Position numbers and translations under genes: made by a program. From positions 1 through 37,223 of the forward strand of contig CAMAMB010000016.1 of the NCBI GenBank assembly GCA_945836755.1: a stretch of 37,223 nucleotides of DNA, in the 5' to 3' direction. The notes under the pieces are model-generated. The model had not been told where the DNA came from and did no database searches. It saw nothing but the letters and a program-made list of their open reading frames with translations. Positions 11,304 through 28,511 of the stretch are shown one piece after another (position 1 is the first letter of the stretch; every line of letters begins with the position of its first letter). This DNA comes from an uncultured Bacteroidales bacterium. Its GTDB lineage: Bacteria; Bacteroidota; Bacteroidia; Bacteroidales; Bacteroidaceae.

Positions 11304-11786
11304 TCAGAATGACACCTCGCCGAAGTCGGTAAGAGAGAGGGGGTCGGTCGCCTCGTCGTCGGCAAAGGCCGCGGCGTCGTCGGCCGGTCCGGCAGCGGCA
11401 TCGGCTTCATAGACGTCGGCTCCGTGGTCTATCTCTTCGTCTGCGTCGGCTACGTCATAGTCGTCGGCGGCCTCGTCGACCGCGGGGTCGTCAAGGCTTT
11501 GTGCAGGCTCGGCGGCGACGGCGGGGGAGTCGGCGGCCGATGGCAGTCCTTCGACCTCGGGCATGACGAAGGTGGCGTCGAAATCGGGGAAGTCGCCGTA
11601 GATGTCGTCGGACCACGAGATGGGCGAGGTGATGTCGTCGTAGAGCTGCTGCAGGGAGGGGTCATTGTCTATAAGTGACTTCACGTGGGCCGCCTCGTGT
11701 GGGGAGAGGTTACCCTCCATGTAGGCTCCCAACTGCTCGGCCGAGAGCCCGGGAGTCAGCATGAAAGAAGGATCAACTTGTGTCAT
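11304..11786 (-). CDS. putative soluble anti-sigma factor (partner of the ECF sigma)
   Basis: The ATG at 11786 gives 160 residues. The N-terminus, LSAEQLGAYMEGNLSPHE (residues 14-31), followed by VKSLIDNDPSLQQLYDD, resembles the sigma-binding helices of anti-sigma factors (L-x-x-Y-x-x-G-x-L-x-x-x-E). It lacks the His/Cys zinc ligands of the ZAS class and has no membrane segment. The rest is very acidic and Ala/Asp-rich with low complexity. It lies 59 bases downstream of the sigma gene on the same strand, ahead of a strong terminator. That arrangement fits an anti-sigma partner, but the acidic tail is unusual and no function is proven. Confidence 0.6.
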   Translation of the reverse strand: MTQVDPSFMLTPGLSAEQLGAYMEGNLSPHEAAHVKSLIDNDPSLQQLYDDITSPISWSDDIYGDFPDFDATFVMPEVEGLPSAADSPAVAAEPAQSLDDPAVDEAADDYDVADADEEIDHGADVYEADAAAGPADDAAAFADDEATDPLSLTDFGEVSF

Positions 11787-11845
11787 GACTATCTGTATAT
11801 GGTAGGTTAGTAGAAGGATGGTGGGGAGAGGATGGGCGCGCGGGC

Positions 11846-12460
11846 TTATCTCTCCGTGTCGCCGCAGTGTCGGCTGCGATAATGGGCCTGGTTGCGCTCT
11901 TTCTGCCATACGGCGAGGAATTGCTGCTTGGCCAGGCGGTGTTTGTTGTAGAAATTGTCCATGGTCATGCCTAAGGCGGCTGCGGTGTCGTCCATGCTGC
12001 GGTCCTCGAGGTAGCGCAGGCGTATGATTTGGCGGTAGCGCTCGTTGGGCATGAGAGAGAGGAGGGTGCACACGTCCATGGCGTTGAGCGAACTCAAGTC
12101 TATCTCTAAGGAGTCAGGTTCGGGGGTAAATCTATCAGTGGCGTCGAGAGATTCTTCAAATATTTCCTTTTTCTTCTTATAGAGCTGGCGGCAATAGGTC
12201 TCGGCTACGATTTTGAGCCAATGGACGAAGTGGCACTTGAAGGAGAAGCTCTCGAGATAGGATCGCCCCGAGGGGTTGCGTGGTGTAAGGAGGTAGACGT
12301 AAATCTCGTTGATGAACTCTATACAGTCGGTGCAGTCGGTGTAGTATTTTTCGTAGACAGCTTTGAAAAGGGGGTAGCACTGCACATAAAAGACCTGGCG
12401 AGTAATGACAGGGTCTCGGCGTAGCAGTGCCTCTACGGCCAATCTCTCGTTTTCGTTCAT
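11846..12460 (-). CDS. ECF-type RNA polymerase sigma-70 factor
   Basis: The ATG at 12460 gives 204 residues. Residues 1-90 correspond to region 2 (FYVQCYPLFKAVYEKYY, CIEFINEIYVYLL, then FKCHFVHWLKIVAETYCRQ), which binds the -10 element and core polymerase. The C-terminal part corresponds to region 4, a helix-turn-helix: LMPNERYRQIIRLRYLEDRSM, then DTAAALGMTMDNFYNKHRLA. An in-frame extension to 12643 is Pro/Arg-rich, unlike sigma factors, and runs into the upstream hairpin, so I rejected it. The gene is the last but one of the minus-strand island. A 217-base gap containing a strong hairpin separates it from the upstream lipoprotein gene, so it may be its own transcription unit. Confidence 0.88.
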   Translation of the reverse strand: MNENERLAVEALLRRDPVITRQVFYVQCYPLFKAVYEKYYTDCTDCIEFINEIYVYLLTPRNPSGRSYLESFSFKCHFVHWLKIVAETYCRQLYKKKKEIFEESLDATDRFTPEPDSLEIDLSSLNAMDVCTLLSLMPNERYRQIIRLRYLEDRSMDDTAAALGMTMDNFYNKHRLAKQQFLAVWQKERNQAHYRSRHCGDTER

Positions 12461-12600
12461 GTGAGCAGGGGGTGAGAAGGTAGACAGGTGAGAAGTATGC
12501 CCGCCGGCGGGGCGATGTGCATCAGTAGGCGGAGTGTGGACTTGGGCCTGACGGGAAGCCTGCGCCGGGGGCGCGGGACGCCGGCTGCGCGGCGGCTGAC

Positions 12601-12665
12601 CGGCAGGAGCAGAAACTGACCGCTGACGACGATCAGGGCGCATAGGTCCTGCCGTCGTCAGCGGT
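12601..12665 (-). terminator. strong hairpin(s) between lipoprotein and sigma genes
   Basis: ACCGCTGACGACG (12619-12631) and CGTCGTCAGCGGT (12653-12665) pair perfectly, starting 12 bases after the lipoprotein stop. A second pair, CGGCAGGA (12601-12608) with TCCTGCCG (12647-12654), overlaps the first, so the two are mutually exclusive. The tail has only TTT. It may be a terminator or an attenuator ahead of the sigma gene. Confidence 0.45.
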
Positions 12666-12677
12666 ATGGGGGATGTG

Positions 12678-13163
12678 TTACTTGGCGGGGGCGTTGCCGG
12701 CTTCCTCGTCGGCGTAGAGGTCTCGGAGCTCTTCGGGCGTAAACTCGATGGTGAGCTTGCTGTTGGCGTTGAGGGTGTCGGTGTAGATAAAGGCTATGCC
12801 GAGGCCTTCCTTGGCGAGCTTTTGTCCGAGGAGGTACGACTTGCCCTCGGGGAGCAGGCTGTTGCGGTGTAACTCGCGGGTGGCGGCATTGTCTATCTGG
12901 TTCATGTAGTCTGTAGACACGTGGTAGATGTAGCGCACCTGGTTGTGGAGGATGGTGGCCTTGATCCAGGTGATTTCGTTATTGAGGGGCTGTGGGAGGA
13001 TGGCGTTGATGGAGTCTATCTTGGCCACGAGGGCGGCTCGCTTGGCGCTCTTCTTGTGGGGCTTGCTGTCGCCACAGGCGGCGAGGCAGCATAGCAGGAG
13101 TGTGGGCAGGAGGAGGGTGAGGGCCACACGGCGCCATACGCGATGGATATGGGTGAGAGTCAT
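12678..13163 (-). CDS. small lipoprotein of unknown function
   Basis: The ATG at 13163 gives 161 residues with a lipoprotein signal peptide and lipobox CLAAC (Cys30), followed by the basic segment KPHKKSAKR. A longer start at 13190 would only add residues before the signal peptide. The mature part has an alternating beta-like stretch (ITWIKATILHNQVRYIYHVSTDY) and ends in an acidic, Ala-rich tail. I do not recognise a family. It lies 50 bases after the preceding exported-protein gene and is probably the last gene of module B (19420 to 12678), so it is likely the envelope end of the kinase pathway. Confidence 0.7.
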   Translation of the reverse strand: MTLTHIHRVWRRVALTLLLPTLLLCCLAACGDSKPHKKSAKRAALVAKIDSINAILPQPLNNEITWIKATILHNQVRYIYHVSTDYMNQIDNAATRELHRNSLLPEGKSYLLGQKLAKEGLGIAFIYTDTLNANSKLTIEFTPEELRDLYADEEAGNAPAK

Positions 13164-13213
13164 GGTGGGAAGTGAGTGAGGATGAAACATGAGGTGGTAG
13201 GCCGGAGGTGGAG

Positions 13214-14182
13214 TTACTTGTCGACGGCGAAGGACACTTCGCCAATCTTGGCCGAGCCTTCGAAGAACTCAGCCTTGTAGATGCCCGGGGTCCAGATGGC
13301 CTGTGAGAGGGAGCCGAAGGGGGGTGAGAGGAAGACGGTCTCCTTGTTCTTCTTGGCGTTGACCTTGTAGGAAATTGTGTACTTGCTGTCGGACGAGGTG
13401 AGGAGGGGCACTCCGTCGGAGTTGGTGATGCGGACGAAGATGTTGTAGTCGCGGTTTTCGGGGCTGATGGCTCTGAAGGTGAAGGCCACGTACTTGAAGT
13501 TGTCGAGGTTGAAGGTCACGCCATCGCCGACGGTCTTGCCGTGAGCATCGACATTGACAGGAAGGATGGGGCCCTGGAGGCGGAGGTCGGTGGGCACCTC
13601 GACTTTGACGACAATGGCCGAATCGCCGTTTTTAATCTTGTCGGCCTTGGCCTTCTCGGCGGCAGCGATGCTGTCGTTGCGCTGAGCGAGGAGGCGCTGC
13701 TTGCGATATTTGTCGCTGAGTTGGCGTACGTCGGTACGGTAGCTGTTCTTGGCCTCGGTGAGGTTGTCGAGGATCATCTGGATAGCCTGAGGGCTGAGGC
13801 CAGTGATGTCTTTCAGGTAGAGCTGTGCTTCGAAACCCACGCGGGAGGTCTCGAGGTTGACCTTGACAGCGTGGTAGCGGAGGTTGTTGAGGGCTGTAGC
13901 CTCCTGAATGGCTTGGGGCTCAAAGCTGTTCTGAGGGTCTTTGTAGCCGGTGATGCTGAAGGTCACTTTGAGTGCGCCGTCGACCTCATCGAAAGTAACT
14001 TGGTACTGGGTCTTATGATAGATGATAATGTTGGCCGTATGATCGGGGGTGATACCGACGTTGCTGACATTGGGGATATCTTTGGCGATGGCATAAAGCA
14101 ACTTCTGCTGCTGCTCAAGGTCAATGGCAAAGGAGCTGAGCACGGCAGCGACGGCCATTAGAGAGAGAAGGATGCGTTTCAT
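13214..14182 (-). CDS. exported protein, YbjN-like N-terminal part, coiled coil and Ig-like end
   Basis: This 322-residue protein starts with a signal peptide, MKRILLSLMAVAAVLSSFA. Residues 25-150 follow the pattern of the YbjN/type III chaperone-like fold: a beta stretch (TANIIIYHKTQYQVTF), LNNLRYHAVKVNLETSRVGF, then a helix. Residues 150-185 are charged and helical (coiled coil). The C-terminal 120 residues are beta-rich, ending WTPGIYKAEFFEGSAKIGEV as in Ig-like sandwich domains. It follows the membrane kinase (14286-15701) on the same strand, with 103 bases between them. The fold assignment is pattern-based and the function is unknown. Confidence 0.65.
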   Translation of the reverse strand: MKRILLSLMAVAAVLSSFAIDLEQQQKLLYAIAKDIPNVSNVGITPDHTANIIIYHKTQYQVTFDEVDGALKVTFSITGYKDPQNSFEPQAIQEATALNNLRYHAVKVNLETSRVGFEAQLYLKDITGLSPQAIQMILDNLTEAKNSYRTDVRQLSDKYRKQRLLAQRNDSIAAAEKAKADKIKNGDSAIVVKVEVPTDLRLQGPILPVNVDAHGKTVGDGVTFNLDNFKYVAFTFRAISPENRDYNIFVRITNSDGVPLLTSSDSKYTISYKVNAKKNKETVFLSPPFGSLSQAIWTPGIYKAEFFEGSAKIGEVSFAVDK

Positions 14183-14285
14183 TGTATGGAAGGGATTGAG
14201 ATAAGAGACGAAAGATTAGTAAAAGGCAGGGGAGGCGGCGTCCGGCGGGCGGCTGCGCTCCCGCAAGCCGCAGAGGGGGCGGCGC

Positions 14286-15701
14286 TCAGAGCTTGCCGAG
14301 GGCTCGCATGCCTCCCAGGGTGATGAGGATGGCTCCCAGGGCGCTGCCCAGGGCCTGGATCACCACATGGGAGCTGAAGGCGAAGGCGCAGACGATGATG
14401 ACCACGCCGGCAAGGCAGCAGGCTATGGTGATGAGCAGCCTCTTGGAGAAGCGGGGGGTGGTCTCTTCTTCGTAGAGCGGCTCGGGCAGCACGGGCTCAG
14501 GCTCGGGGGCTGCGGCGGACAGCTCGGGCTCCTTGTTGGCCATGTCGAGAAGCATCTGCTTGACCTTGGCCCAGTCTAACTGGCAGTTGGGGTCGCTGGC
14601 CAGGTAGATGACAGGGTCGGGGGCGCCGATGGGCTGGTGGAAGTCCATGCGGTGGATCATGTTGCCGTTGATGAGGGTACCGTTGGTGCTACGGTCGTGG
14701 AAGATGAAGTAGGTGCCGCCGGTGAAGGATTTAAGCTCTATGTCAGCATGATGGCTGCTGACGCGCATGGTGGGGTCGTTGATTTCGATCTGACAGGCCC
14801 CGGGGTTACCGGGATTAAGTCGGCCGACACTGATGGAGAGATGGGCATTGCGGGCCACCTGGACCGTACCGCCGCCGGGCATGGGCTGGGGCGGTAGACC
14901 GACTGCCTCTCTGAGGGCATTGGCGAAGTCGTAGCAGTGGCGGTAGCGCTTGACCATGTTCTTATCGGTGGCCTTGTCGAGCACCTGCTGCATCTTCTTG
15001 CTTGTGCCCTTGACGTACTTGGAGAGGCGTGGGAAGGGCTTGTTGATGAGGGCGTCGAGCATGAGGGCCGAACTTTCCTGAGGCGGATAAGCATGGTAGC
15101 CCGTGAGCATGTAGAAGAGGACGCAGCCCAAAGAATAGATGTCGGAGCGGCAGTCAATGTCCATGGCACTGGCCTGCTCGGGGCTCATGTAGCCGTCGGA
15201 GCCGAGGACCATGCCGGCCATGGTGTGGCTGTGGGACCTGAGGTCCTTGGCAATGCCAAAGTCGAGGATGCAGACAGAGCCGTCGGTGCGTATCATGATG
15301 TTGTTGGGCTTGAGGTCTCGGTGTACGACCTTCTCGTTGTGGACATACTGCATGACTTCAAGCACCTGGGACATGATTTCGACGGCTTCCTTCTCCTTGA
15401 ACGGCCCATGCTCCAAGACATACTGTTCGAGGTTGAGGCCGTCGACCAGCTCCATGACAATATAATATTTGTCGTTGAGCATGAACGACTGGTAGGTGCG
15501 CACGATGGCCGGGTTGTCGAGGCGGTCGAGGATGTTGCGCTCCTGGTTGATGCGGAAGCGCATTTCGACATCGGCGGCGTACTCCGGGAGTATTTCCTTG
15601 ATGGCCACCACTTTTCCCTCGGGGTCGACAGCTTTGAGGATGCGCCCCATGCCGCCCTCGCCTAAGGGGATGTCGTCTACCTTGTATTGTGAGATGTACA
15701 T
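14286..15701 (-). CDS. membrane Ser/Thr protein kinase with FHA domain (module B kinase)
   Basis: This 471-residue protein contains a complete Hanks-type kinase: Gly loop GEGGMG (14-19), ATP Lys35 in VVAIKE, catalytic loop HRDLKPNN (127-134), DFG (147-149) and YMSPEQ (171-176). An FHA domain follows at about 286-370, with SVGRLN, VSSHH (314-318) and STNGTLING (338-346), so the kinase can bind phosphothreonine in cis or trans. After an acidic Pro/Glu linker come two membrane helices (about 421-443 and 448-466), leaving almost nothing outside. It has no PASTA sensor. It starts 9 bases after the PP2C stop, so kinase and phosphatase are made together. Confidence 0.92.
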   Translation of the reverse strand: MYISQYKVDDIPLGEGGMGRILKAVDPEGKVVAIKEILPEYAADVEMRFRINQERNILDRLDNPAIVRTYQSFMLNDKYYIVMELVDGLNLEQYVLEHGPFKEKEAVEIMSQVLEVMQYVHNEKVVHRDLKPNNIMIRTDGSVCILDFGIAKDLRSHSHTMAGMVLGSDGYMSPEQASAMDIDCRSDIYSLGCVLFYMLTGYHAYPPQESSALMLDALINKPFPRLSKYVKGTSKKMQQVLDKATDKNMVKRYRHCYDFANALREAVGLPPQPMPGGGTVQVARNAHLSISVGRLNPGNPGACQIEINDPTMRVSSHHADIELKSFTGGTYFIFHDRSTNGTLINGNMIHRMDFHQPIGAPDPVIYLASDPNCQLDWAKVKQMLLDMANKEPELSAAAPEPEPVLPEPLYEEETTPRFSKRLLITIACCLAGVVIIVCAFAFSSHVVIQALGSALGAILITLGGMRALGKL

Positions 15702-15710: not shown

Positions 15711-16934
15711 TTAAATAGTTTCGTCGGGGTTGAGCGTGATGGTGGTGAGCTTCTGTTCAGACTCGGGCGCAGCCGGTGTCGCGCTCTGCCCCTTCTTAGA
15801 GGTATCCTTGATGGTCTTACTTGCCTTGGAGGGGGTGGCATTCTTATTAGTATCCTTGATGGCGTTAGAGGCAGGGCTCTTGGGGTCGGGGGCAGGCTCG
15901 GTGGGCTTCACCTTGGGGGCCTCGGGCTCTGTGACCACGATGGTCTTCCTGGCGCGGACGGGCGACTTGGTGTGAACGGCCTTCTTTTCAAGGACTACGT
16001 CAGTGGGGGTGTCGGCCGGGGCGGTGCGGGACTTGCTGTAAAAGTCCCAGCCGAGGTAAGCGCCTATGGCAAAGAGGAGGACGCAGATGACGACCATGCC
16101 TACCCAGGCGTAGCTCTTCTTGGCCACGGGGGAGGCGTGTTCGTCGGTGGTGATGGCCGCCACTTCGGGGCGCTGAGGGGCAGCGGCAGCGTCGCCGGCC
16201 GAGCAGTCGATGATCTGGACCGTGATGTTATCGTAGCCTCCGGCCTCGTTAGCCAGGCTGACGAGGTTGTCGCAGCGCTGCTGGGGAGTGAGGCCGGGCA
16301 TGGCGAGCTGCTGGCTGATGGTGAAGTCGGGTATCATGCCCGTAAGGCCGTCGGAGCAGAGCAAGAGGAGGCCTCCGTCGCTGACGGGCACGGGGCTCTC
16401 GCCTATGACGGGCGGCTCCATGCCTTCAAGGCCGAGGGCATTGAGTATCTCATTCTTACGCGGATGGCGCTCGGCCTCTTCGGGGGTTATCTGGCCGCTG
16501 TCTACGAGGGTCTGCACGTAGCTCTGGTCTTTGGTGAGCTGCTGCAGGCCCTGGGCGGGGGTGTAGTAGTAGATGCGGCTGTCGCCTATGCTGCCGTAGT
16601 AGATGTGGCCCTGGCTGACGATGGCTATCACGCAGGTGGAGCCCATGCCCTGGAGGTCGGGGCGGGTGGAGGCACGGTGGAGGATGCCCTGATTGGCAGC
16701 TACGCAGGCTCTGGTAATGGCTTCATGAGGAGTAGGGAACGTATTGTTGACCAATATATCCTGTATGATTGTCACTGCAAGAGTGGATGCCGTATCGCCG
16801 CCGTTCTCGCCCCCCATGCCGTCGCATACCGCCACTACATAGCCATTGGGCGAGTCGAAGGAGATCATGCTGTCTTCATTGTGCTGGCGGGTCTTCCCCA
16901 CGTCTGTGGCTCCTGCTACTTGGAAATTCATCAT
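15711..16934 (-). CDS. PP2C-family protein phosphatase with membrane anchor (module B phosphatase)
   Basis: The ATG at 16934 gives 407 residues (16931 is equally possible; a start at 17042 adds an unrelated basic stretch). Residues 1-245 are a PP2C/PPM phosphatase that removes phosphate from Ser/Thr using two metal ions: RQHNED (16-21), DGMGG (38-42), GDSRIY (117-122), SDGLTG (194-199) and GGYDNIT (232-238). A membrane helix lies at about 275-296. The remaining 110 residues, probably periplasmic, are Lys/Thr/Pro-rich and low in complexity, with two IKDT-containing segments. It is immediately upstream of the module B kinase and downstream of a zinc-ribbon FHA gene, the natural partners in a reversible Thr phosphorylation circuit. 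Confidence 0.92.
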   Translation of the reverse strand: MMNFQVAGATDVGKTRQHNEDSMISFDSPNGYVVAVCDGMGGENGGDTASTLAVTIIQDILVNNTFPTPHEAITRACVAANQGILHRASTRPDLQGMGSTCVIAIVSQGHIYYGSIGDSRIYYYTPAQGLQQLTKDQSYVQTLVDSGQITPEEAERHPRKNEILNALGLEGMEPPVIGESPVPVSDGGLLLLCSDGLTGMIPDFTISQQLAMPGLTPQQRCDNLVSLANEAGGYDNITVQIIDCSAGDAAAAPQRPEVAAITTDEHASPVAKKSYAWVGMVVICVLLFAIGAYLGWDFYSKSRTAPADTPTDVVLEKKAVHTKSPVRARKTIVVTEPEAPKVKPTEPAPDPKSPASNAIKDTNKNATPSKASKTIKDTSKKGQSATPAAPESEQKLTTITLNPDETI

Positions 16935-17013: not shown

Positions 17014-17736
17014 CTAAATCTGCGGGATGGGCACGAAGACAAAGATGGTGCCGCCTACCCGTATGATGTCATAGCTGTTGAGCTCGCCGTCGTCAAGCAG
17101 TTCCTTGTTGATGAAGGTACCATTGGAGGACTGCTCGTCGCGGAACTTGAACTTGTTGTCGACGCCGCGGTAGAGGATGGACATGTGGCGGCCTGACATC
17201 TGGGTGTCGTCTTTGACGCAGATGTCGCAGGAGGCATCGCGGCCTACGTAGTTGCGACCTTCATAGATGGGGTATGCCTTGCCTAAGGGGGTGCGGTTGT
17301 AGGTAACGAGGAAGCCAACGAGCTTGCGGCCGGTGACTGTGCCGGGCTGTGCGCCCTGGGCTACGGGACGGCGTATCATGGTGCGTCCGCCGGGGACGGG
17401 GGCTGCCGGACGCGGAGGGGCGGGAGGAGCCACCTGGGGCCGAGGCTGCGCTTGCGGCTGGGGCTGGGCGATGGGGTTGACCATCGTGGCGCCTACGGCA
17501 TCGGGGGCGGCATCGACCATCTGTGTGGCGCCTTGGGCTTCGGAGAGAGGGGAGGGCGCTACCCCACCGATATGCGTACGGGCCGAGGGCACGGGCGAGG
17601 GCTGAGGCATGGGCTGGGCCGCATCAGGTGCAGCGGCTGAAGCTCCCGCGCCTACCATGGCGTTGCAGATGGGGCAGTTGGTGCCATAAATAGCAGTATC
17701 AAATACATGGCCGTTGGGGCATTTCACTTTTGACAT
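17014..17736 (-). CDS. zinc-ribbon FHA-domain protein (module B adaptor)
   Basis: The ATG at 17736 gives 240 residues. A short zinc finger opens the protein: C6, H10, C21, C24 in CPNGH and CPIC. Residues 30-135 form a Pro/Ala/Gln-rich linker with four Thr sites of similar context: RTHI (T54), ATQMV (T71), ATMV (T84) and RTMI (T119). The FHA domain is at about 138-236, with EGRNYVGRD (159-167), MSGRHMS (180-186) and SSNGTFINKE. FHA domains bind phosphothreonine. I infer that the linker Thr residues are kinase targets and that this soluble protein acts as a phospho-switch, like GarA/OdhI. The next gene is the module B phosphatase, 79 bases on. Confidence 0.85.
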   Translation of the reverse strand: MSKVKCPNGHVFDTAIYGTNCPICNAMVGAGASAAAPDAAQPMPQPSPVPSARTHIGGVAPSPLSEAQGATQMVDAAPDAVGATMVNPIAQPQPQAQPRPQVAPPAPPRPAAPVPGGRTMIRRPVAQGAQPGTVTGRKLVGFLVTYNRTPLGKAYPIYEGRNYVGRDASCDICVKDDTQMSGRHMSILYRGVDNKFKFRDEQSSNGTFINKELLDDGELNSYDIIRVGGTIFVFVPIPQI

Positions 17737-17882: not shown

Positions 17883-18749
17883 TTAGACGAAGTCGACCAC
17901 ATCGGCGGCGTTGTTATAGTCGGCGTTGTTGGAGGCGTAATCGTCAGTAGAGGTCTCTTCGATGTTGAGCTCCTCGATGGGGTTCTGCTCCTGGCCGTCA
18001 GTGTCGTCAACGACGTCGGAAAGAGAGTCGTCGGGGTCGAGAAGGCTGTCGTCTTCGCTTTCAATCTCGATATCATTGGGTATATCGCTGATACCTTCTC
18101 CGTCGTCAGTGAGAGACTCGTCGAGAATATCGGGATCAATGTAAGGATCAGTCTCTATATCTTCGGGAGCAGCGGCATCCATGTGGTGAACGACGGTGTG
18201 GGTTGCCTGGCCAAAGTTCTCTACGCTGAACTGGTCGTCAGCCTCGAGCTTGCCGCCTTCGTTGGGGTCGAACTGTCCGTTGCCGTCGGCGTCGTAGTAG
18301 AGTTCGTCGACCATGCCGTCGCCGTCGGTATCAGTGGCCTGCCACATCTTTCCTTCGAGAGTGCCTGTGGTCTGCGATGCTTGGTAGTTGCCTTCAGCGT
18401 CGATGGTAATCTCCTGGTTGTCTACGATAAAGCCATTGGCCTCGGCGGAAGCGGTAGGCTCTTCGGATTCGGCGGGCGCAGGAGTTTCGGCCTGCTTAGT
18501 CACTATGACGGTGGTATCTGCGGCTCCCTGGTTGGCGCCTTCCATAAGATCTTGGGTGGAGAGCTCGGCTGCATCGTTGGCGGGCTGTACGTCGGCGGGC
18601 TGATCGCCCATGGTAGCGTTGGCTGCAACGGCTACGCCTGCACCTGCTACGCCCATTCCTGCGGCTACGCCAAGGGTCTTGGCCATATTTGACTTCTTGA
18701 CAGCGGCGTCTTCCATTTCTTCAATCTTGTAGTTGTCGTTGGTAATCAT
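17883..18749 (-). CDS. acidic protein with EF-hand-like calcium loops and a Gly/Ala-rich membrane segment
   Basis: This 288-residue protein has a basic N-terminus, a Gly/Ala-rich hydrophobic segment (about 24-46: TLGVAAGMGVAGAGVAVAA) that may span the membrane, then a long, strongly acidic region. Two adjacent calcium-loop-like segments stand out: D140-x-D-x-D144-G (DTDGDGMVDE) and D153-x-D-x-N157-G (DADGNGQFDPNE), as in EF-hand or thrombospondin type 3 repeats. The C-terminal 90 residues are almost wholly Asp/Glu/Ser/Asn (DPDILDESLTDDGEGISDIP). I do not recognise the whole protein. It lies in module B, directly upstream of the zinc-ribbon FHA gene. A calcium-responsive input or scaffold is only an inference. 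Confidence 0.75.
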   Translation of the reverse strand: MITNDNYKIEEMEDAAVKKSNMAKTLGVAAGMGVAGAGVAVAANATMGDQPADVQPANDAAELSTQDLMEGANQGAADTTVIVTKQAETPAPAESEEPTASAEANGFIVDNQEITIDAEGNYQASQTTGTLEGKMWQATDTDGDGMVDELYYDADGNGQFDPNEGGKLEADDQFSVENFGQATHTVVHHMDAAAPEDIETDPYIDPDILDESLTDDGEGISDIPNDIEIESEDDSLLDPDDSLSDVVDDTDGQEQNPIEELNIEETSTDDYASNNADYNNAADVVDFV

Positions 18750-18754: not shown

Positions 18755-19420
18755 CTAATATTTAAGGTTTGTATTATTATTCTGATTGGTTTCGTTGTAG
18801 ATGGTGGTGAGGGTAATCACGTCGCGCATAAAGATGAGCTCGGGCTGCCGCAGATGGTCGGTGAAGAGTATGATATAGTCGTCGTCGGTGGTGAGCCGGT
18901 CAGCGCCTACATTCTGCTCTATGATGATGCCCCGGTATCGGGTATTGCCGGTGACCACGAGGTTGTCGTAGGGTCGTTGTTCCCAGTAGTCGAGACTGGG
19001 GTTGCGCTTCAGTCTCTTGGTCTTCATCAGGTCACCGGCTGCGATGGTGACCCGTTCTCCGCCGTCGGAGGGGACGAGGGTGAAGCTCTTTCCCGGCACT
19101 TGGCAAACTACCTGTCCACGGTACTGCATTCCGTTGCGCGCCACCAGGAGGTCTTCCAGTCCGTCGGTCTCTGTCTCGCTGTAGCGGTGGGTCACTATGG
19201 AGTCTATCGCTTGGATGGTCACAAACTCGCTGTGGTTGTCGGCGTGGCCCAGGATATAGCCTTTGCGGGTGCGGGTGACAGACTTCAGATTGTCTGCAAC
19301 GCGCCCGTCCTTCAGGTAGTAAGTGTTCCTCTGTGCCGTCACAGGGCACGCTGCGAGCAGGAGGCAGAGCAGTATCACCCGGCGGTGGATGCGGCAAAGG
19401 AGGTGCGCTTGCTTCATCAT
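18755..19420 (-). CDS. exported protein with three beta-repeat units of the KNG/RG type
   Basis: The ATG at 19420 (or 19417) gives 221 residues with a signal peptide, LCRIHRRVILLCLLLAACPV. The mature part repeats one beta-rich unit three times: YYLKDGRVADNL, DLLVARNGMQYRGQVVCQ and NLVVTGNTRYRGIIIEQ. Each is followed by a second strand pair and a closing D-x-I/L segment. This resembles the common Bacteroidetes exported repeat with D-x-I-x-L-K-N-G-x-x-I-x-G-x-I. Its role is unknown; it may bind an envelope ligand. It ends 5 bases before the start of the acidic EF-hand-like gene, so the two are co-transcribed, and it is probably the first gene of module B. Confidence 0.65.
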   Translation of the reverse strand: MMKQAHLLCRIHRRVILLCLLLAACPVTAQRNTYYLKDGRVADNLKSVTRTRKGYILGHADNHSEFVTIQAIDSIVTHRYSETETDGLEDLLVARNGMQYRGQVVCQVPGKSFTLVPSDGGERVTIAAGDLMKTKRLKRNPSLDYWEQRPYDNLVVTGNTRYRGIIIEQNVGADRLTTDDDYIILFTDHLRQPELIFMRDVITLTTIYNETNQNNNTNLKY

Positions 19421-21363: not shown

Positions 21364-21948
21364 TTATAGTATGGTCTCTACGGCGGGCATTGCCTCAGCC
21401 GAGTCGCCGTTTTCAGCGGCGGTGCGAGTGGTTTTGAGCAGTCGGTCCTTGATGCCATTGATGGCCGGGTCTTGCTTTGCAGGGGCTTCCTTGGCGTCGG
21501 ACTCGGGCTCGGTGGTTGCTTCTTCGGGTGTCCTGGTGGCTGTCATCGCGTCGTCGCCGCCACCGAAGCCTACGGCCACCGAGATGCTATCTACGGGCAA
21601 CACTGCCGTCTTGGGACTACTGAACGCCATGAAGCAGCCGAATATCAGGGCGGCTATGAGCAGGGCGGCGAGCAGTATATGCGGCTTGCGGTAGGGATGG
21701 GGCACTTCGTCCCAGTCCAGCTCCCATACCTTGGCCAGCGATACCTTGTCTTTGCGTGAGACGTTCCTCCACTCGCCCTTCTCCATGGTTTCGCCATTGA
21801 TGAAGGTGCCGTTGGTGCTATCGTCGCAGAGCTGCATCCTGCCGAAGAAGGAGATGCGCAGATAGCAGTGGTGGCGGCTTACCTGGTCGGTCTCGTCAGG
21901 TATCACGATGTCGGCGTCGAGACCGCGGCCTATGAGATATTCTTTCAT
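21364..21948 (-). CDS. membrane-anchored FHA-domain protein
   Basis: This is a 194-residue protein. The FHA domain opens the chain (1-75): YLIGRGLDADIVI, QVSRHHCYLRI (22-32) and DDSTNGTFINGE (42-53), the Ser, His and Asn-Gly positions that bind phosphothreonine. A membrane helix at about 90-110 (ILLAALLIAALIFGCFMAF) puts the last 85 residues in the periplasm, where they are Ser/Thr/Ala-rich without a recognised domain. It starts 15 bases after the PP2C stop and 17 bases before the WG-repeat gene. It could carry a cytoplasmic phospho-signal to the periplasmic side. Confidence 0.87.
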   Translation of the reverse strand: MKEYLIGRGLDADIVIPDETDQVSRHHCYLRISFFGRMQLCDDSTNGTFINGETMEKGEWRNVSRKDKVSLAKVWELDWDEVPHPYRKPHILLAALLIAALIFGCFMAFSSPKTAVLPVDSISVAVGFGGGDDAMTATRTPEEATTEPESDAKEAPAKQDPAINGIKDRLLKTTRTAAENGDSAEAMPAVETIL

Positions 21949-21963: not shown

Positions 21964-22962
21964 TTAGTCGTTGTTTGCCTGTGTCTCTTCCTTCCCTGCG
22001 TCGGCGGGTTGGTTATTCTCCTCGCGCTTCGTGGCTGCGGGCTGAGACAGGGGCTTAGGTGCGGGTTTAGGGGTAGGCTTGGCGGGCTTCAGAGCCTTGG
22101 GCTTGGTTTTCTTTTTGTGCTTGGCAAACCACCGGCAAATCTTGTCGGTCAGTGAGTACTGGTAGGTGGAGTCTGCGGCTACCTCGGCGCCTATGAGGGT
22201 CAGGTTGTCATACTCTGCATGCGACTCGGCACCGAGGCGGTCTACGTAGGCGGTAGTGTCTTCGACCACCTTCTTCATGGGGTCGTCGCTTGTAAAGAAG
22301 GCCAAGAGCTGTGCCTCGGGCATGGTGTTCCATATACCGTCGCAGCATAGCATGAAGCGGTCTCCCTTGGTGTAGGGCAGCTTGACGATGTCCACGTCGA
22401 CTTCCTTCTTCAGCCCCATGGCACGGGTGATGATGTTGTTACCCGGGGCGGTGCGAGCCTGTTCCTCGGTGTAGACGCCCAGCTCCACGAGCTCAAACAC
22501 GCGTGAGTGGTCGTTGGTGCGAAACAGTTTCTTCTTATTTCTCAGTTGGTAGCCTCTACTGTCGCCGGCGTGGGCGAAGTAGGCTGCCTCGGGGGTGAGG
22601 TAGAGCACCACTGCCGTCGACCCCATGCCTCTGAGTTCGGGCACTTCGCGGGAGCGGTTGTACACGGCGAGGGTAGCTTTCTGAAACACCTGTTCCAGCA
22701 TCTCCTCAGGTGTGGGTTTCTTGGCCGGCTCCGTCAGCTGGTCGTAGAAGATGGCGGCCATCTCGTCGACGATGGTATGTGCGGCGAGGAAGGAGGCCTG
22801 ACTGCCCCCTGCAGCGCCCCCCATGCCGTCGCACACCACGAGCACTGTATGATGGGCATCGAAAGCCTTGCCGGTACAGTAGTCCTGGTTTTCGCTGCGC
22901 CCGCCCTGCTTCGACTCGCTGTAGGCCTGTATCTGCGGGTTGTTCACAAGTTCTTGAACCAT
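21964..22962 (-). CDS. PP2C-family protein phosphatase (module A phosphatase)
   Basis: This 332-residue protein has the full PP2C/PPM motif set: GGRSENQD (20-27), CDGMGGAAGG (44-53), HAGDSRGYQL (131-140), CCDGIW (206-211) and EYDNLT (250-255). It should hydrolyse phospho-Ser/Thr with two metal ions. Unlike the module B phosphatase it has no membrane helix; the last 55 residues are Lys/Pro-rich and basic (KHKKKTKPKALKPAKPTPKP), perhaps for binding an acidic partner or the membrane surface. It begins 9 bases after the module A kinase stop and lies 15 bases upstream of the FHA-TM gene, so kinase, phosphatase and reader are co-translated. Confidence 0.93.
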   Translation of the reverse strand: MVQELVNNPQIQAYSESKQGGRSENQDYCTGKAFDAHHTVLVVCDGMGGAAGGSQASFLAAHTIVDEMAAIFYDQLTEPAKKPTPEEMLEQVFQKATLAVYNRSREVPELRGMGSTAVVLYLTPEAAYFAHAGDSRGYQLRNKKKLFRTNDHSRVFELVELGVYTEEQARTAPGNNIITRAMGLKKEVDVDIVKLPYTKGDRFMLCCDGIWNTMPEAQLLAFFTSDDPMKKVVEDTTAYVDRLGAESHAEYDNLTLIGAEVAADSTYQYSLTDKICRWFAKHKKKTKPKALKPAKPTPKPAPKPLSQPAATKREENNQPADAGKEETQANND

Positions 22963-22971: not shown

Positions 22972-24582
22972 TTATTCGAAGACGGTTTTCCTTGTATAAG
23001 CCACTCGGTCCTGATACAACTTATCGTTGTTCTCGAGCGCTGCGTTGTAGGTGCGGTTCAGGTAGTCTTCAAGCACGGGGGCGTCCTGGATGCGGTCACG
23101 CACTGTGCCGCGCTTGTCACCCCATACATAGTCCCAGCTCAGTTCATAGAGGGCGGGGTAGAACTTGGGGTCGGCCTTCACACACTCTTCAAGCAACTTG
23201 TGTGCCGTGCCTTGGTTGACAGACATCACATTGGCCAGATTTTCCTGTACCTTCACATAGAAGTCTCTGAGGTTCACAGCCTCGTCGAACACGCCGATGG
23301 GCGAGTCGGTCGTCACGCCATAGTCGTAGTATATACGGCTCAGCACGAAGATGGCTTCGGCGCGAATGGGCGACTGCAGGTCGCTGTACGTAGCGTTGAG
23401 GTCCTTCCACGCCAACTGTGCGGTGGCGGGGTCGTAGAGGGCCTTGAGTTTGAGTTTCATGTCTATCGACACGGGGTAGTTGGCCAGCATGGAGTCGGTC
23501 ATCACGGCCACGGAGTCGGTCTGCTCGGTCGGTTCTACGGTCGTCGACTTGGGCAGGAAGACGAGGAGCAGCACGACGGCGAGCACCACGATGGGGAGCC
23601 CCCACTTCAGCGTCTTGTTGAGGTTGATGAGGTCTTTCTTGTTGGGGTCGAAGCGGTCGATGTCTACGCGGAACTCTGCGGCCGAGCTATAGCGCTTGCG
23701 CTGATCTTTCTCGGTGGCGTGGGCTATGATCTTGCGTGCCTGGGGGTTCTTGATGTCCGCCATGTTGATTTTCGACTTCAGCTGGGCCGAGATGATGGCG
23801 GTGGTAGGGCCGTCGAAGGGCAGGCGTCCCATGATGAGCTGGTAGAACATGATGCCGATGGCATAGATGTCGGTCGTGCGGTCCTGGTGGAACACGTCGC
23901 CCAGCACCAGTTCGGGAGCGGCATACTGGGCCTTGCCTATAAACTGGCCGGCGCTGGTGAGGGCCTTGTCCTGGGTGGCGAGGGTCGTGATGTGTTTGGC
24001 TATGCCGAAGTCTATGAGCTTGATCTTGCGGTCTATGGTGACCATGATGTTGCTCGGGTCTATGTCGCGGTGTATGTAGCCCGCATCGTGCAGGGCCATC
24101 AAGCCGCTCAGCAGGCTGCGCACGATGATGGCGGCAAACTCGTATGAGTTGCTACGGTAGAGGTCGTACAGCTCTACGGCGTAGGGTATGGTCTGTCCGT
24201 TGCTGGTCGTCGTCACGCCTTTGAGCAGGTCTGAGAGCGTGACGCCCACAAGTAGTTCGCTGACCACGTGATAGTGTTTGCGCACGGCTTTGCCGCCGGG
24301 CATCTTCTCTTCGGTGGTCAGGAAGCCCATCATCTCGACCAGGTTGTCGCTCTTGAGCTGGATGTTGGCCTCGCGGCGCGCGCGTTCTATGACTGAAGGA
24401 GCGAGGCCGTCGAACATGAACTTGATGGCCACGTCCTTACACAGCCCGGTGTGTGCATCCACGCAGCGGCCGCGGTATACCTTGCCCATGCCGCCCTCGC
24501 CGAGGGGGGCGGTGGAGGTATCAAACTCATAATAGATGCCTTTCTCTATCTCGGCTGTACCTTGTAGTTTTATGATTGCCAT
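22972..24582 (-). CDS. membrane Ser/Thr protein kinase with periplasmic helical domain (module A kinase)
   Basis: This 536-residue protein has a Hanks-type kinase domain at 15-310: Gly loop GEGGMG (28-33), Lys54 in VAIKF, catalytic loop HRDIDPSN (171-178), DFG (191-193) and AAPE (221-224). In the catalytic loop the usual Lys after HRD-x is Asp175. One membrane helix follows (about 327-344: WGLPIVVLAVVLLLVFLP). The last 190 residues should be periplasmic and are helical and TPR/Sel1-like (EAIFVLSRIYYDYG, then LEECVKADPKFYPALYELSW), a possible sensor in place of PASTA domains. It starts 27 bases after an FHA gene and 9 bases precede the phosphatase. Confidence 0.92.
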   Translation of the reverse strand: MAIIKLQGTAEIEKGIYYEFDTSTAPLGEGGMGKVYRGRCVDAHTGLCKDVAIKFMFDGLAPSVIERARREANIQLKSDNLVEMMGFLTTEEKMPGGKAVRKHYHVVSELLVGVTLSDLLKGVTTTSNGQTIPYAVELYDLYRSNSYEFAAIIVRSLLSGLMALHDAGYIHRDIDPSNIMVTIDRKIKLIDFGIAKHITTLATQDKALTSAGQFIGKAQYAAPELVLGDVFHQDRTTDIYAIGIMFYQLIMGRLPFDGPTTAIISAQLKSKINMADIKNPQARKIIAHATEKDQRKRYSSAAEFRVDIDRFDPNKKDLINLNKTLKWGLPIVVLAVVLLLVFLPKSTTVEPTEQTDSVAVMTDSMLANYPVSIDMKLKLKALYDPATAQLAWKDLNATYSDLQSPIRAEAIFVLSRIYYDYGVTTDSPIGVFDEAVNLRDFYVKVQENLANVMSVNQGTAHKLLEECVKADPKFYPALYELSWDYVWGDKRGTVRDRIQDAPVLEDYLNRTYNAALENNDKLYQDRVAYTRKTVFE

Positions 24583-24609
24583 TGTCTATATATTGTGTCG
24601 TTAGGGGTG

Positions 24610-26121: not shown

Positions 26122-26223
26122 ATCTCTCGGCAGGGGGTGGTTGGGCGGGGCTGTAGCGCTCCCGCGGCTGGTGGATTATGGGTGGGGAGGAGAGGCGGTC
26201 ACTGCCCCTTTAGGCAGGCCGTC

Positions 26224-26997
26224 CTATTGGCAGCCGGTTTCTTGATTGACTTCGGCCACCACCATGGTGTCGCTGAATTTTCCCCACATCTGTGGGTGTA
26301 CGCCGAAGCGCTCGATGGTCAGGGGGTTGGCGTAGTTGAAGAGCTCGCGGGCCGTCACCTTCGCGTCGCCGTTGGCGTCGGCCGCACCCTCCATGCCGTC
26401 GAGCACGTAGCGCAGGAAGTCGGCGCCCTCGGAGCCTATCAGGCCGGGCTTGTCGCCGGGCGCCGAGGCGTATATCATGACGTCAGCACTGCTGCGGGGC
26501 GTCACGCGCCGGGTATCGCTGTGGCGGTAGGTGATGCCGCCCGAGTAGCAGGCGCTGACAAAGGCCATCTTGCGGCCGGCCTTCGACTGCCGCATGATGC
26601 GCTGTATCTCGTCGTAGCCCAGCCCGCCGGCAGCGCAGCCGTGCATAGACACACCGCCCGCGGCCCAGCTTGTCGTGATGTAGCCGTGGCCGTCGAAGAT
26701 GAAGACGATAGCATCGTCCTTATCGGCGCGGGCAAACATGCTCTTCATCACGCGTCTGACGTTGGAGAGGGTAGCATTCTGGTCGAGCAGAAGGTGTACC
26801 TCGGCGTGCTGCTGCGTCTTGTAGTAGGTGGCGGCTCGCCGGGCCGTGGCCTGGGGTATACCCATGAGGGTGTTCTGGTTGTCTACTCCCACCACCACGA
26901 CGTAGGTCTTACCACGGCCATGGGCGGCGAGAACGGTCAGCAGCATGAGGCCCGGCAGGGCGCCTTTGAGAAATCGGAGAAGGGTGGTCGTTGACAT
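26224..26997 (-). CDS. exported caspase-like peptidase (C14 family), second copy
   Basis: The ATG at 26997 gives 257 residues; a GTG at 27003 would add two. A signal peptide (LLRFLKGALPGLMLLTVLAA) leads into a caspase-like p20 core: KTYVVVVGVDN (30-40), catalytic His104 in FIFDGHGY and catalytic Cys150 in FVSACYSGG. ADVMIYASAPGD and SEGADFLRYVLDG follow as in metacaspase/orthocaspase families. Near the end, D207-x-N-x-D211 to E218 (DANGDAKVTARELFNY) resembles a calcium loop common in bacterial caspases. Clan CD enzymes cleave after Arg/Lys or Asp; specificity is not visible here. It is a paralogue of the gene 28 bases upstream, and both end with FGVHPQMWG. Confidence 0.88.
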   Translation of the reverse strand: MSTTTLLRFLKGALPGLMLLTVLAAHGRGKTYVVVVGVDNQNTLMGIPQATARRAATYYKTQQHAEVHLLLDQNATLSNVRRVMKSMFARADKDDAIVFIFDGHGYITTSWAAGGVSMHGCAAGGLGYDEIQRIMRQSKAGRKMAFVSACYSGGITYRHSDTRRVTPRSSADVMIYASAPGDKPGLIGSEGADFLRYVLDGMEGAADANGDAKVTARELFNYANPLTIERFGVHPQMWGKFSDTMVVAEVNQETGCQ

Positions 26998-27025
26998 GGG
27001 CACGGCGGATTAGCGGGGTGGCGTA

Positions 27026-27835
27026 TCAGTGGGCAGACTGGAAGGGGAAGGGCGGACGGACGGCGGGCTTCACCTTGGAGAGCCGGAGGTTGTCGTCGAA
27101 CCTGCCCCACATCTGTGGATGCACGCCAAACTTCTTCAGGATGATGGGGTTGACGTAGTTGAAGAGCTCGCGGGCCGTCACGTAGCTGTCGGCGTTGGTG
27201 TCGGCGCGGCCTTCGAGGCCGCGAATGACGGTGCTCAGGAAGTCCTCTCCGTCGGTGCTCAGGTAGCTGGGCTCGTCGGCCTTGCTGGAGAGGTAGAGCA
27301 TGACGTCGGCCTTGACCCGCGCACGGGCCGGGGGAAGGGCGGAGCGCTTGAGCTTGGGGCGCTTCTTGGGAGCGGTGAGGCCGCCCGAGTAGCAGGAATT
27401 GATAAAGGCCACTTTCTTGCCCACACCCAGGCGGCTGAGCAGCTCCTGTATCTCGTCGTAACCTAAATAGCCCTTGGCGTCGGCCGTGGTGATGCCGCCG
27501 TGGTGGATGCTCGTGGCTACATAGCCGTGGCCGGCATAGACGAAAAACACCTCGTCGTCGCCACGGGCCTCAGCCGCCACTTGCCGAAAGGCGGCTATAA
27601 GGGCCTCGCGCGTCACCTCACGGCCGTAGAGCTGGCGTATGTCGGTCACTCCCTGGCGCGTGAAGAAGGACACGGCGAGACGCACATTGCGCTCGGCGTA
27701 ACCCTTGAGCGTGCTGTTCACATCGACGGCAGCGGCTATCACGTAGGTACGGGCCGCGGCGGGCCATAGGCTGCACACAGCCAGCACGGCCACGAGTAAC
27801 GGCCTAAGCAGTAACGCACCTTTAGAACTCACCAC
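27026..27835 (-). CDS. exported caspase-like peptidase (C14 family), first copy
   Basis: I start this at GTG 27835 (or 27832), giving 269 residues with a clean signal peptide (SSKGALLLRPLLVAVLAVCS, then Ala-Ala-Ala-Arg). The frame is open up to a TTG at 27928, but that would lie deep in the FHA gene and hide the signal peptide. Catalytic residues are His103 (FVYAGHGYV) and Cys148 (FINSCYSGG). A calcium-like loop is at D212-x-N-x-D216 to E223 (DTNADSYVTARELFNY), and the end has FGVHPQMWG like its paralogue. A basic insert follows the Cys (PKKRPKLKRS), a plausible self-processing site between p20-like and p10-like parts. The start overlaps the FHA stop by 14 bases, so translation is coupled. 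Confidence 0.86.
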   Translation of the reverse strand: MVSSKGALLLRPLLVAVLAVCSLWPAAARTYVIAAAVDVNSTLKGYAERNVRLAVSFFTRQGVTDIRQLYGREVTREALIAAFRQVAAEARGDDEVFFVYAGHGYVATSIHHGGITTADAKGYLGYDEIQELLSRLGVGKKVAFINSCYSGGLTAPKKRPKLKRSALPPARARVKADVMLYLSSKADEPSYLSTDGEDFLSTVIRGLEGRADTNADSYVTARELFNYVNPIILKKFGVHPQMWGRFDDNLRLSKVKPAVRPPFPFQSAH

Positions 27836-28511
27836 TGAACTTCGACTTGCAGTTAGGACACTTGCCGACAAGGCGGATATTGGCGTACATCTTGCCCACA
27901 AACGACATATGGCAGTGCGGGCAGACAAAGTTGCGCTTGAAGTTGGAGTCGCACATGTTGCGACGGCGGATGAGCTTGTTGCTCTGACGGATGAGGACGA
28001 GGAAGCCGAGACCGGCCACGAGGAGGGTGACCAACGGGGCCACTATCTTGTAACGCGGGTCGGTGAGCACGAAACCTGTGATGGTGGCCATGATGCCGCC
28101 CAACGAGAAGACGGCCATGCGAAACATACCGTTCGAAGCCAGCTTCTGCTCCACGATGACCTTCTCACGGTTATAGTTCTCTTCGAGATACTTCAAGGGG
28201 GTGATGTCGTACTCCGCGGCCGCCGGGGCGTTGCCTTCCTTCGACAAGTAGCGATTGATGAGATCGCTGACCTTGAACTCCAGCTCGGGCCCGAAGCGCA
28301 CGGTCATGCCCTTAGTGAGCTTCTGCTGCGTGATGCGCTTGTAGTTGCCATTCTTCAGGAGGATGAAGGTGCCGTTGGTAGACTGAAGGTCCTCCAGCAT
28401 CATGTCGCCATTTTCGTCGATGGTTATCTGGGCATGCTTGCGGCTGACGCGGGCATCGGTTATCTGAAAAGGCTGATTGCCTTCCTTTCCTATGATGATT
28501 TCTCGTACCAT
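27822..28511 (-). CDS. FHA domain, two membrane helices and C-terminal zinc ribbon
   Basis: The ATG at 28511 gives 229 residues; a longer start at 28559 passes the likely promoter leader. The FHA domain opens the protein (1-85): EIIIGKEGNQ, ARVSRKHAQIT (20-30) and LQSTNGTFILLKNG (42-55). Two membrane helices lie at about 131-149 and 155-174, so both ends are cytoplasmic. The C-terminus holds a four-Cys zinc ribbon: C197, C200 (CPHC) and C218, C221 (CPNC). Joining a phosphothreonine reader, a membrane hairpin and a zinc ribbon is unusual. It is the first gene of the signalling island, downstream of a good -7 box, and is coupled to the first caspase gene. Confidence 0.85.
   Translation of the reverse strand: MVREIIIGKEGNQPFQITDARVSRKHAQITIDENGDMMLEDLQSTNGTFILLKNGNYKRITQQKLTKGMTVRFGPELEFKVSDLINRYLSKEGNAPAAAEYDITPLKYLEENYNREKVIVEQKLASNGMFRMAVFSLGGIMATITGFVLTDPRYKIVAPLVTLLVAGLGFLVLIRQSNKLIRRRNMCDSNFKRNFVCPHCHMSFVGKMYANIRLVGKCPNCKSKFSGEF

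Follow-up and report, generated by a model that had tools for sequence, protein, structure and literature searches.

Writer–reader–eraser circuits of kinases, FHA domains and phosphatases are best known from type VI secretion and from the PASTA kinases. PASTA kinase loci encode a cytosolic kinase, a transmembrane (TM) segment and an extracytoplasmic part, and the TerY-P triad consists of a vWA protein, a kinase and a PP2C phosphatase. No trans-envelope signalling route is known for exported caspases. In type VI secretion of Agrobacterium, TssL, an inner-membrane protein, is phosphorylated on Thr14 of its cytoplasmic part in a PpkA-dependent manner, and Fha binds it there (PMC3953482); KKP loci, often located in prophages, consist of a PP2C gene followed by genes for two kinases with CSD and FHA domains (PMC11341870). 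Here, we describe an island at positions 11304-28511 of a 37,223-nucleotide stretch from an uncultured Bacteroidales bacterium; this stretch, hereafter the window, is a whole contig (1-37223) of a 2.25 Mb draft genome that is 84.8% complete. The island comprises about 18 genes, all on the minus strand, and probably encodes a phosphothreonine signalling circuit that crosses the inner membrane and has periplasmic caspases among its outputs; for the caspases, this reading draws on linkage and predicted topology.

Pfam scans of 20 window proteins (11304-29788) identified in the island six FHA domains, two Ser/Thr kinases, two PP2C phosphatases, WG repeats and one caspase above the cut-off, and the catalytic motifs of the kinases, phosphatases and caspases are intact (Table 1). 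The genes had been listed by a first-pass annotation of this DNA, and all of them were found where it had placed them, on the minus strand and with their motifs preserved. Its FHA, kinase, PP2C, WG and ECF sigma labels are backed by family matches, whereas its anti-sigma label has no such match and its EF-hand label a weak one. The tabulated starts of casp1, the sigma gene and the anti-sigma-like gene are the actual starts, which give genes shorter than the open reading frames (ORFs), with approximate coordinates for casp1 and the anti-sigma-like gene; the caspase ORFs as called span 27026-27928 (casp1) and 26224-27003 (casp2). TM segments were assigned by hydropathy; N-terminal hydrophobic segments of the signal-peptide type occur in both caspases and in exp, lipo and repB. 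The clustering of FHA and kinase genes is not a matter of chance, because six of the seven FHA matches and two of the three kinase matches of the draft genome fall here; for six of seven FHA matches to lie within the 17.2 kb of the island, uniform placement on this draft genome gives a probability of about 1e-12.

Judged by residue statistics, disordered tails of the island-type proteins carry a Thr-x-hydrophobic motif that is not found for Ser, which is new here. Redundancy was reduced in the underlying sets; relatedness remains, so that the p-values are optimistic. In the linkers of FHAa and ZnFHAb, V/I/L/M/F stands at position +2 for 73 of 151 Thr versus 27 of 177 Ser residues (Fisher, 6e-11), and the Thr count had a shuffle mean of 26.6 and was reached in none of 2000 shuffles. 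For ZnFHAa, a hydrophobic +2 residue follows 176 of 558 Thr and 103 of 490 Ser (shuffle mean 128, 0 of 2000). The cytosolic N-terminal tails of the acidic membrane protein, scored for V/I/L/M/F/Y, show 120 of 359 Thr (shuffle mean 56.4, 0 of 2000) and 33 of 207 Ser (shuffle mean 35.7); among 95 such tails, 67% contain T-x-hydrophobic and 23% S-x-hydrophobic, nine proteins without a TM segment being left out. The difference is smaller in FHATMZn, the FHA protein with two TM helices and a zinc ribbon (175 of 467 Thr versus 191 of 605 Ser; Fisher, 0.025; TM segments included).

Related loci (L numbers; genomes, G numbers) were collected by FHATMZn searches of 295 genomes of the order and 301 of the family, of which 23 and 44 had a match at E<=1e-3 with partial FHA matches counted, and by a caspase-profile scan of named genomes. 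The same gene order, including exp, lipo, the sigma and the anti-sigma-like gene, recurs with gains and losses of single genes in Xylanibacter rarus, G630 and G374, and on two contigs in G635. The isolate X. rarus 109 (G582) has FHATMZn, caspase, ZnFHAa, FHAa, PP2Ca, FHATM, repB and EF, followed by ZnFHAb, PP2Cb, kinFHA, further kinases, exp, lipo, a kinA-like kinase, the ECF sigma and the anti-sigma-like gene; it has neither the WG protein nor a kinase at the place of kinA. G630 (L101 + L210) and G374 (L061 + L215) have a kinase at that place, the WG gene and a barrel-type gene, and hold all of repB, EF, ZnFHAb, PP2Cb, kinFHA, exp, lipo, sigma and anti-sigma-like. The halves of G635 (L106, L214) gave no repB match. 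L102 and L103 show the genes of the first half (module A, FHATMZn to the WG protein) as far as their contig ends, and in L104, L105, L107 and L108 the second half (module B, repB to lipo) directly follows caspase and FHA genes, with no kinA and PP2Ca between. The WG gene adjoins an outer-membrane barrel-type gene in L061, L101, L102 and L106 (Pfam PF13568, checked for L101 only). Read by eye, the neighbours of the island differ among X. rarus, G635, G636 and the window.

By gene order and similarity, 11304-28511 is thus one conserved island whose modules are mosaic and whose parts are interchangeable. The first-pass annotation had proposed two self-sufficient parallel modules, which does not stand, as the four loci that join module B to caspase/FHA genes show; its concern that the genes might rarely co-occur is answered by their ordered co-occurrence across other genera, and its assignment of the ECF sigma and putative anti-sigma genes to the island agrees with their linkage in four other genomes. 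The island it delineated is real and conserved, and at the same time an uncommon form of a larger family whose members are mostly linked to LytTR. ZnFHAb has eight orthologues at 50-56% identity, and it reaches E<1e-100 in three of the 301 family genomes (its own, G374 and G582) and E<=1e-15 in nine; because of the former count, we regard the window, on sequence grounds, as a rare sub-type. Two related islands (L098, L099) carry kinA/PP2Ca/FHATM-type genes, a protein of about 520 residues that matches FHA queries, WG-type or barrel-type genes and repB, with no caspase match in the 20 kb fetched.

The core of the wider family consists of FHATMZn, the acidic calcium-motif membrane protein, ZnFHA, PP2C and kinases, usually together with an exported caspase, and mostly with a LytTR gene, not a sigma gene. 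It was characterized in 81 caspase-selected loci, namely the best 80 of 196 relatives plus the window, many of which end at contig ends; locus profiles were built from L060-L099 and the window, and the profile for the acidic protein combines three clusters, including a window-type one. These loci contain ZnFHAa in 71 cases, a kinase in 71, PP2C in 70, the acidic protein in 67, FHATMZn in 66 and LytTR in 48, and the next annotated gene after LytTR is FHATMZn in 48 of 48. Of 80 caspase genes, 43 have an acidic-protein gene at most 400 bases upstream and 29 have FHATMZn upstream, and ZnFHAa lies downstream of 53; 656 of 665 annotated genes are on the majority strand of their locus. Across the 301 family genomes, 27 have both caspase and FHATMZn, seven the caspase only, 17 FHATMZn only and 250 neither (Fisher, 1e-20, weak FHA matches counted). 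A strong caspase occurs in 34 of them, and in 30 of the 34 it lies with FHATMZn on one contig within 10 kb (not in G443, G373 and G552; G512 left out). The acidic-protein profile alone, run against 296 genomes of the phylum, matched three. In each of the four loci fetched from these genomes, the genes for FHATMZn, the acidic protein, ZnFHA and PP2C follow one another in this order and a kinase gene is visible; two of the ZnFHA matches are weak (4e-6, 5e-7). On a Runella rosea plasmid (L230, NZ_CP030851.1, 1044-7864) FHATMZn, acidic protein, ZnFHA, PP2C and caspase directly succeed one another, in a neighbourhood that also includes vWA, WG and OmpA genes, and the record is annotated with domain names or 'hypothetical' only; the reach of the core to this plasmid is new here. 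A plasmid search gave 36 records, all at <60% identity, the best being that of Runella. One record titled Clostridium sp. MAG (L169) has a caspase that nests among those of Bacteroidota and is probably mis-binned or mislabelled.

The acidic protein of the window matches EF-hand at E 0.004, below the cut-off, and the DxDxDG pattern is conserved across its family. A profile-profile comparison of the window-type and broad acidic families gave a match over the calcium-motif domain (97.8%, E 7.7e-13, 55 columns); as far as profiles tell, the two share this domain. The predicted structure of the acidic protein of L131, a broad-type one (28-row alignment; overall predicted local distance difference test, pLDDT, 65; predicted template-modelling score, pTM, 0.35), has an N-terminal tail of low pLDDT, taken as disordered, and two confidently modelled exported domains at about 99-162 and 206-283, where ten-residue means are mostly 90-97. 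Residues 99-162 of this protein (gene at 9016-9942) are predicted to form a small folded domain, F..AFAAAR.EVGPGG.F.WHG..Y.T...EW, that has no Pfam match at E 0.05.

Both caspases keep the GHG and CYSGG motifs and belong to the caspase (Peptidase C14) superfamily. For casp1 the Pfam C14 score is 37.6 bits (cut-off 21.4); casp2 has no Pfam caspase match, an NCBIfam match far under its cut-off and a weak match to a PADLOC caspase model, and, scanned alone against the EACC1-caspase model NF047832, reaches 40.2 bits for a cut-off of 140. By sequence, the closest PDB entries are GSU0716 and metacaspases. A tree of 105 caspase sequences groups the 11 window-type rows in a single clade (100/98), with casp1 and casp2 as sisters (100/98); among window-type loci the tandem pair occurs only in the window, and phylogenetically it is a tandem duplication. 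An N-terminal hydrophobic segment of the signal-peptide type was flagged by script in 74 of 82 caspase ORFs from the named loci and the window, and the remaining eight show one by eye. In metacaspases, the S1 Asp two residues before the catalytic Cys shapes the preference for Arg/Lys. Most relatives have this Asp, including 53 of 54 caspase rows from loci with a WHG-type acidic protein (the exception, L148, looks like a misplaced motif match). It was read in none of the window-type rows, where casp1 reads NSC and casp2 SAC (the script match for casp2 was misplaced, as perhaps was that for L105), nor in L065 and L166, which are not window-type. Because the window-type caspases lack it, their cleavage specificity may differ from that of Arg/Lys metacaspases.

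Cleavage of the acidic protein by the caspase at an Arg (FAAAR/AEV) was rejected as a claim and retained as a weak lead. This Arg is invariant in the 28-row acidic-protein alignment A6, the pattern [AS]R.[ED] occurs in 52 of 64 WHG-type proteins, and the exported part of WHG-type proteins averages 1.8% Lys+Arg; in the L131 model, Arg118 lies in helix 110-121 of a confidently folded domain, which makes it a poor cleavage site. Co-variation of the caspase Asp with the Arg-containing domain was also set aside, since the sub-type that lost the Asp is a single clade, which amounts to one event; this Asp is also missing from L065 and L166.

Across the collected loci, the kinases combine a uniform catalytic domain with diverse C-terminal parts. 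From 207 non-redundant kinase ORFs, the 154 of at least 380 residues were used, and 150 yielded a kinase domain; all 150 domains form one cluster, and 149 C-terminal parts fall into 50, of which 40 are single and two have 43 and 40 members. A TM segment followed by at least 80 residues is present in 88 of the 149, and the C-terminal parts of relatives include WG, Sel1, DUF805 and RHS-type repeats. In loci with two or more kinases, all C-termini differ in 19 of 37 and some share a cluster in 18. Two records titled B. caecigallinarum (L131:1448-13564 and L134:102-12218) are 99.4% identical in DNA over 12.1 kb, and the match stops inside the first downstream kinase gene at about codon 235, where the Pfam kinase match ends at 234; beyond it the L131 kinase has WG repeats and the L134 kinase Sel1 repeats. 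L130 and L131 are 97-99% identical over the core and differ in their kinases. These near-identical islands with unrelated kinase C-termini are, in sequence comparison, new here, and the pattern in L131, L134 and L130 looks like cassette exchange of receptor parts. In L131/L171 and L119/L157 the kinase domains are conserved with C-termini unrelated in most pairs, and in L115/L138 and L138/L155 the C-termini are similar (58-59% identical).

The ECF sigma factor scores 45.1 bits against TIGR02937 (cut-off 42.9) and shares 46% identity with that of the X. rarus island. A profile of the window and X. rarus anti-sigma-like genes finds the post-sigma gene in L210, L212, L214 and L215. Of the ten genomes with window-type loci, six have the sigma gene: four carry it in linkage with the island, the other two on a different contig. 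In G416 a window-type sigma gene lies just upstream of FHATMZn, at the usual place of LytTR. Window-type sigma genes also stand without core island genes in the fetched stretches L216-L220, L222 and L223, with an anti-sigma-like gene in L216, L217, L219 and L222; the pair may have other uses.

If the island works as a circuit, the kinases, with a cytosolic catalytic domain and a membrane-anchored C-terminal part, would phosphorylate the Thr-x-hydrophobic sites in the disordered tails of the FHA readers and, in the wider family, in the cytosolic N-terminal tail of the acidic membrane protein as well. FHA domains would dock on the marked Thr residues to build a membrane-bound assembly around FHATMZn, the PP2Cs would erase the marks, and the assembly would alter the exported side, that is, the acidic calcium-motif protein, the caspases, the WG protein, exp and the lipoproteins. 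Transcription would be set by the ECF sigma/anti-sigma-like pair here and by a LytTR protein in most relatives. The earlier proposal of a trans-envelope phosphothreonine circuit over proteases fits the topologies and the Thr motif, and its caspase branch is the conjectural part. Several results weigh against the circuit as drawn. The tails of FHATM show no Thr enrichment, nor do those of PP2C (14% Thr versus 12% Ser), and in window-type acidic proteins the N-terminal motif is absent (none of the 4 Thr in seven tails fits it), so that marks in these islands would sit on FHAa, ZnFHAb and ZnFHAa. The broad acidic profile A6 misses the acidic protein of the window, whose phmmer link to non-window-type loci is weak (L124, 1.6e-4; next L116, 0.009). 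The caspase is not an obligate output: one of the four loci outside Bacteroidales has it and the other three show none in the 20 kb fetched, and the window-type island of G374 is without it, the G374 caspase being in a second island (L094). The sigma gene was not found in four of the ten genomes with window-type loci, and it occurs without a core island gene in seven of 11 strong-match genomes (13-20 kb fetched), for which it was rejected as a strict island marker. A gapped-word search of 79 upstream regions yielded no shared promoter motif; as candidates for an ECF promoter it gave poly-A-type words, and the best other word, in five regions, was no better than shuffles.

What the circuit serves can be read in several ways. 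A tentative possibility is an undescribed receptor-kinase system in which exchangeable extracytoplasmic sensors act through FHA-read phosphothreonine across the inner membrane on exported caspases; it would be, with the same tentativeness, a periplasmic counterpart, in bacteria, of proteolysis or cell death triggered by receptors, with the window as an ECF-sigma-linked sub-type whose caspase is duplicated. A diversifying conflict or self/non-self system, in which the kinases sense phages, predators or neighbours and the exported caspase kills the cell or acts in the envelope, seems rather unlikely to us. The swapped kinase C-termini of the near-identical L131 and L134 (WG versus Sel1), the 50 clusters of C-terminal parts against one of kinase domains and the patchy distribution of the strong caspase (34 of 301) would suit it, but the known bacterial caspase defence effectors act in the cytosol, whereas the caspases here are exported. 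PADLOC, run on 10 window proteins, returned kinase, PP2C and weak caspase models and not a system, and no caspase relative was found in phage records or IMG/VR. Moreover, two C-terminal clusters hold 43 and 40 members, 18 of 37 multi-kinase loci share clusters, the sensor swapping observed comes from LytTR-type islands, and two other pairs compared keep similar C-termini.

It is equally doubtful that the island is a regulator of envelope stress or cell-surface homeostasis that acts through the ECF sigma factor or LytTR, with the caspase as a maturation protease. The linkage of these regulators to the island, the invariable position of FHATMZn as the next annotated gene after LytTR (48 of 48) and the numerous exported components speak for it; patchy presence within the family and variable kinase arrays would be unusual for housekeeping, and no common promoter motif was found upstream of the island genes. 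That two unrelated kinase/PP2C/FHA loci are neighbours by chance is very improbable: although both halves include a kinase, a PP2C and a zinc-ribbon FHA protein of their own and lie on separate contigs in G635, X. rarus, G630 and G374 have them in collinear arrangement, and module B follows caspase/FHA genes in L104, L105, L107 and L108.

Table 1. Genes of the island, in order from its first gene; the last column gives the ORF in which an FHA, kinase or PP2C domain was matched.
Gene	Coordinates	Strand	Description	Basis	ORF
FHATMZn	27825..28511	-	FHA, then two TM helices and a C-terminal zinc ribbon; heads the island	Pfam FHA 1.5e-14	27822-28559
casp1	~27026..27835	-	Exported caspase-fold protease, His and Cys motifs intact	Pfam Peptidase_C14 2.6e-9; GHG, NSCYSGG	
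casp2	26224..27000	-	Second exported caspase, tandem-duplication sister of casp1 by sequence	phmmer to casp1 4e-55; GHG, SACYSGG	
ZnFHAa	25540..26121	-	Zinc-ribbon-like N-terminal cysteines, linker with KTQV motif, FHA	Pfam FHA 2.4e-9	25540-26121
FHAa	24610..25485	-	FHA; N- and C-terminal tails with [KR]T-x-hydrophobic motifs (KTVI, KTQI, RTVLY)	Pfam FHA 2.2e-12; motif alignment	24610-25485
kinA	22972..24582	-	Ser/Thr kinase, TM 325-343, extracytoplasmic C-terminal part	Pfam Pkinase 5e-34; VAIK, HRD, DFG	22972-24582
PP2Ca	21964..22962	-	Soluble PP2C phosphatase, no TM called	Pfam PP2C_2 5.2e-12; metal-site motifs	21964-22962
FHATM	21364..21948	-	FHA, one TM (91-109), low-complexity tail	Pfam FHA 9.8e-13	21364-21948
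WG	19580..21346	-	WG-repeat protein	Pfam WG_beta_rep 1.9e-11; signal-peptide-like N-terminus by eye, no TM called by script	
repB	18755..19420	-	Exported protein, no Pfam match	Homologues in X. rarus (L060/L100), L061, L098, L099, L210	
EF/acidic	17883..18749	-	N-terminal tail, Gly-rich TM (25-43), acidic part with DxDxDG motifs	Weak EF-hand match	
ZnFHAb	17014..17736	-	Zinc-ribbon-like N-terminus, FHA, linker sites ARTHIG, GATQMV, GATMVN, GRTMIR	Pfam FHA 1.2e-12	17014-17787
PP2Cb	15711..16931	-	PP2C, one TM (275-293), low-complexity tail	Pfam PP2C_2 4.9e-17; metal-site motifs	15711-17042
kinFHA	14286..15701	-	Ser/Thr kinase, FHA, two C-terminal TMs	Pfam Pkinase 4.5e-53, FHA 2.2e-7; VAIK/HRD/DFG	14286-15701
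exp	13214..14182	-	Exported; predicted N-terminal alpha-beta domain, long helix, C-terminal beta domain	Homologues in L190, L104, L107, L108, L210, L214, L215	
lipo	12678..13163	-	Small lipoprotein	Cys after hydrophobic segment; homologues in L190, L104, L108, L210, L214, L215	
ECF sigma	11846..12460	-	ECF sigma factor	TIGR02937 above cut-off	
anti-sigma-like	~11304..11810	-	Acidic protein, directly after sigma	Position and similarity to post-sigma gene of X. rarus and others	

The AlphaFold2 model of the window exp protein (5-row alignment) is of modest quality, with a mean pLDDT of 71 and a pTM of 0.45. Outside the island, copies of CTACATGTACAT lie at 15-48, 28945-29022 and 37123-37204, the middle one upstream of the island and the outer ones at either end of the contig; the window holds 16 matches with at most one mismatch, against 0.03 expected, one of them at 25727, and this repeat perhaps broke the assembly. 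At 33185-33463 lies a tandem repeat whose basic unit measures 22 bases and whose higher-order unit measures 110 bases, and two adjacent related proteins of one cluster are encoded just past the island end (6570-10777). A search for an empty site via the flanking gene 29324-29788 gave matches in eight of 58 genomes of the genus, two of them strong besides the genome's own; the strong matches (L199, L200) lie in surroundings without any other window flank or island gene, and no empty site was obtained.

No description of this gene set was found in the Creative Commons-licensed PMC literature, searched by titles and the starts of abstracts, which agrees with its having been called possibly undescribed. 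If the circuit operates as proposed, Bacteroidales possess an envelope-spanning trigger for periplasmic proteolysis. In gene content, the island pairs a core comparable to known ones with exported caspases and, across the wider family, with kinases whose C-terminal parts differ between near-identical islands. For tests of the circuit there are now candidate phosphosites, a small folded domain that no Pfam family matches, and isolates such as X. rarus 109 (window-type) and Bacteroides caecigallinarum ET21 (LytTR-type). The view that known kinase/PP2C/FHA loci share the core and not this set is borne out, as tss, vWA, CSD and PASTA were not found in the window scans. Like PASTA loci, kinA has the layout of a cytosolic kinase, a TM segment and an extracytoplasmic part, but no PASTA repeats are among the Pfam matches of either window kinase. 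TerY-P resembles the island in its kinase, PP2C and zinc-ribbon parts, and a vWA gene adjoins the Runella core; however, the 20 scanned window proteins have no vWA domain in Pfam. With KKP, the island shares a PP2C with kinases, one of them fused to FHA, but it gave no match to CSD, its PP2C genes each adjoin a single kinase gene, and there are many exported proteins. The caspase fold and His-Cys motifs are common to metacaspases, orthocaspases and the conflict caspases linked to effector-associated domains (PMC7159879, PMC8195603), whereas the island caspases are exported, lack the Asp two residues before the Cys and show no effector-associated domain. A further likeness is to the PpkA/PppA/Fha proteins of type VI secretion (PMC3953482), in which a kinase, a PP2C and an FHA protein are likewise arranged around a membrane protein with a cytoplasmic Thr. 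The island differs in that the 20 scanned window proteins include no tss product, its FHA proteins score 20.9-36.8 bits against the TagH model (cut-off 120), and exported caspases, the acidic calcium-motif protein and sigma or LytTR genes are added. The best-supported reading is that the circuit of the island would work like the TssL-Fha step, yet is no member of the type VI secretion system.

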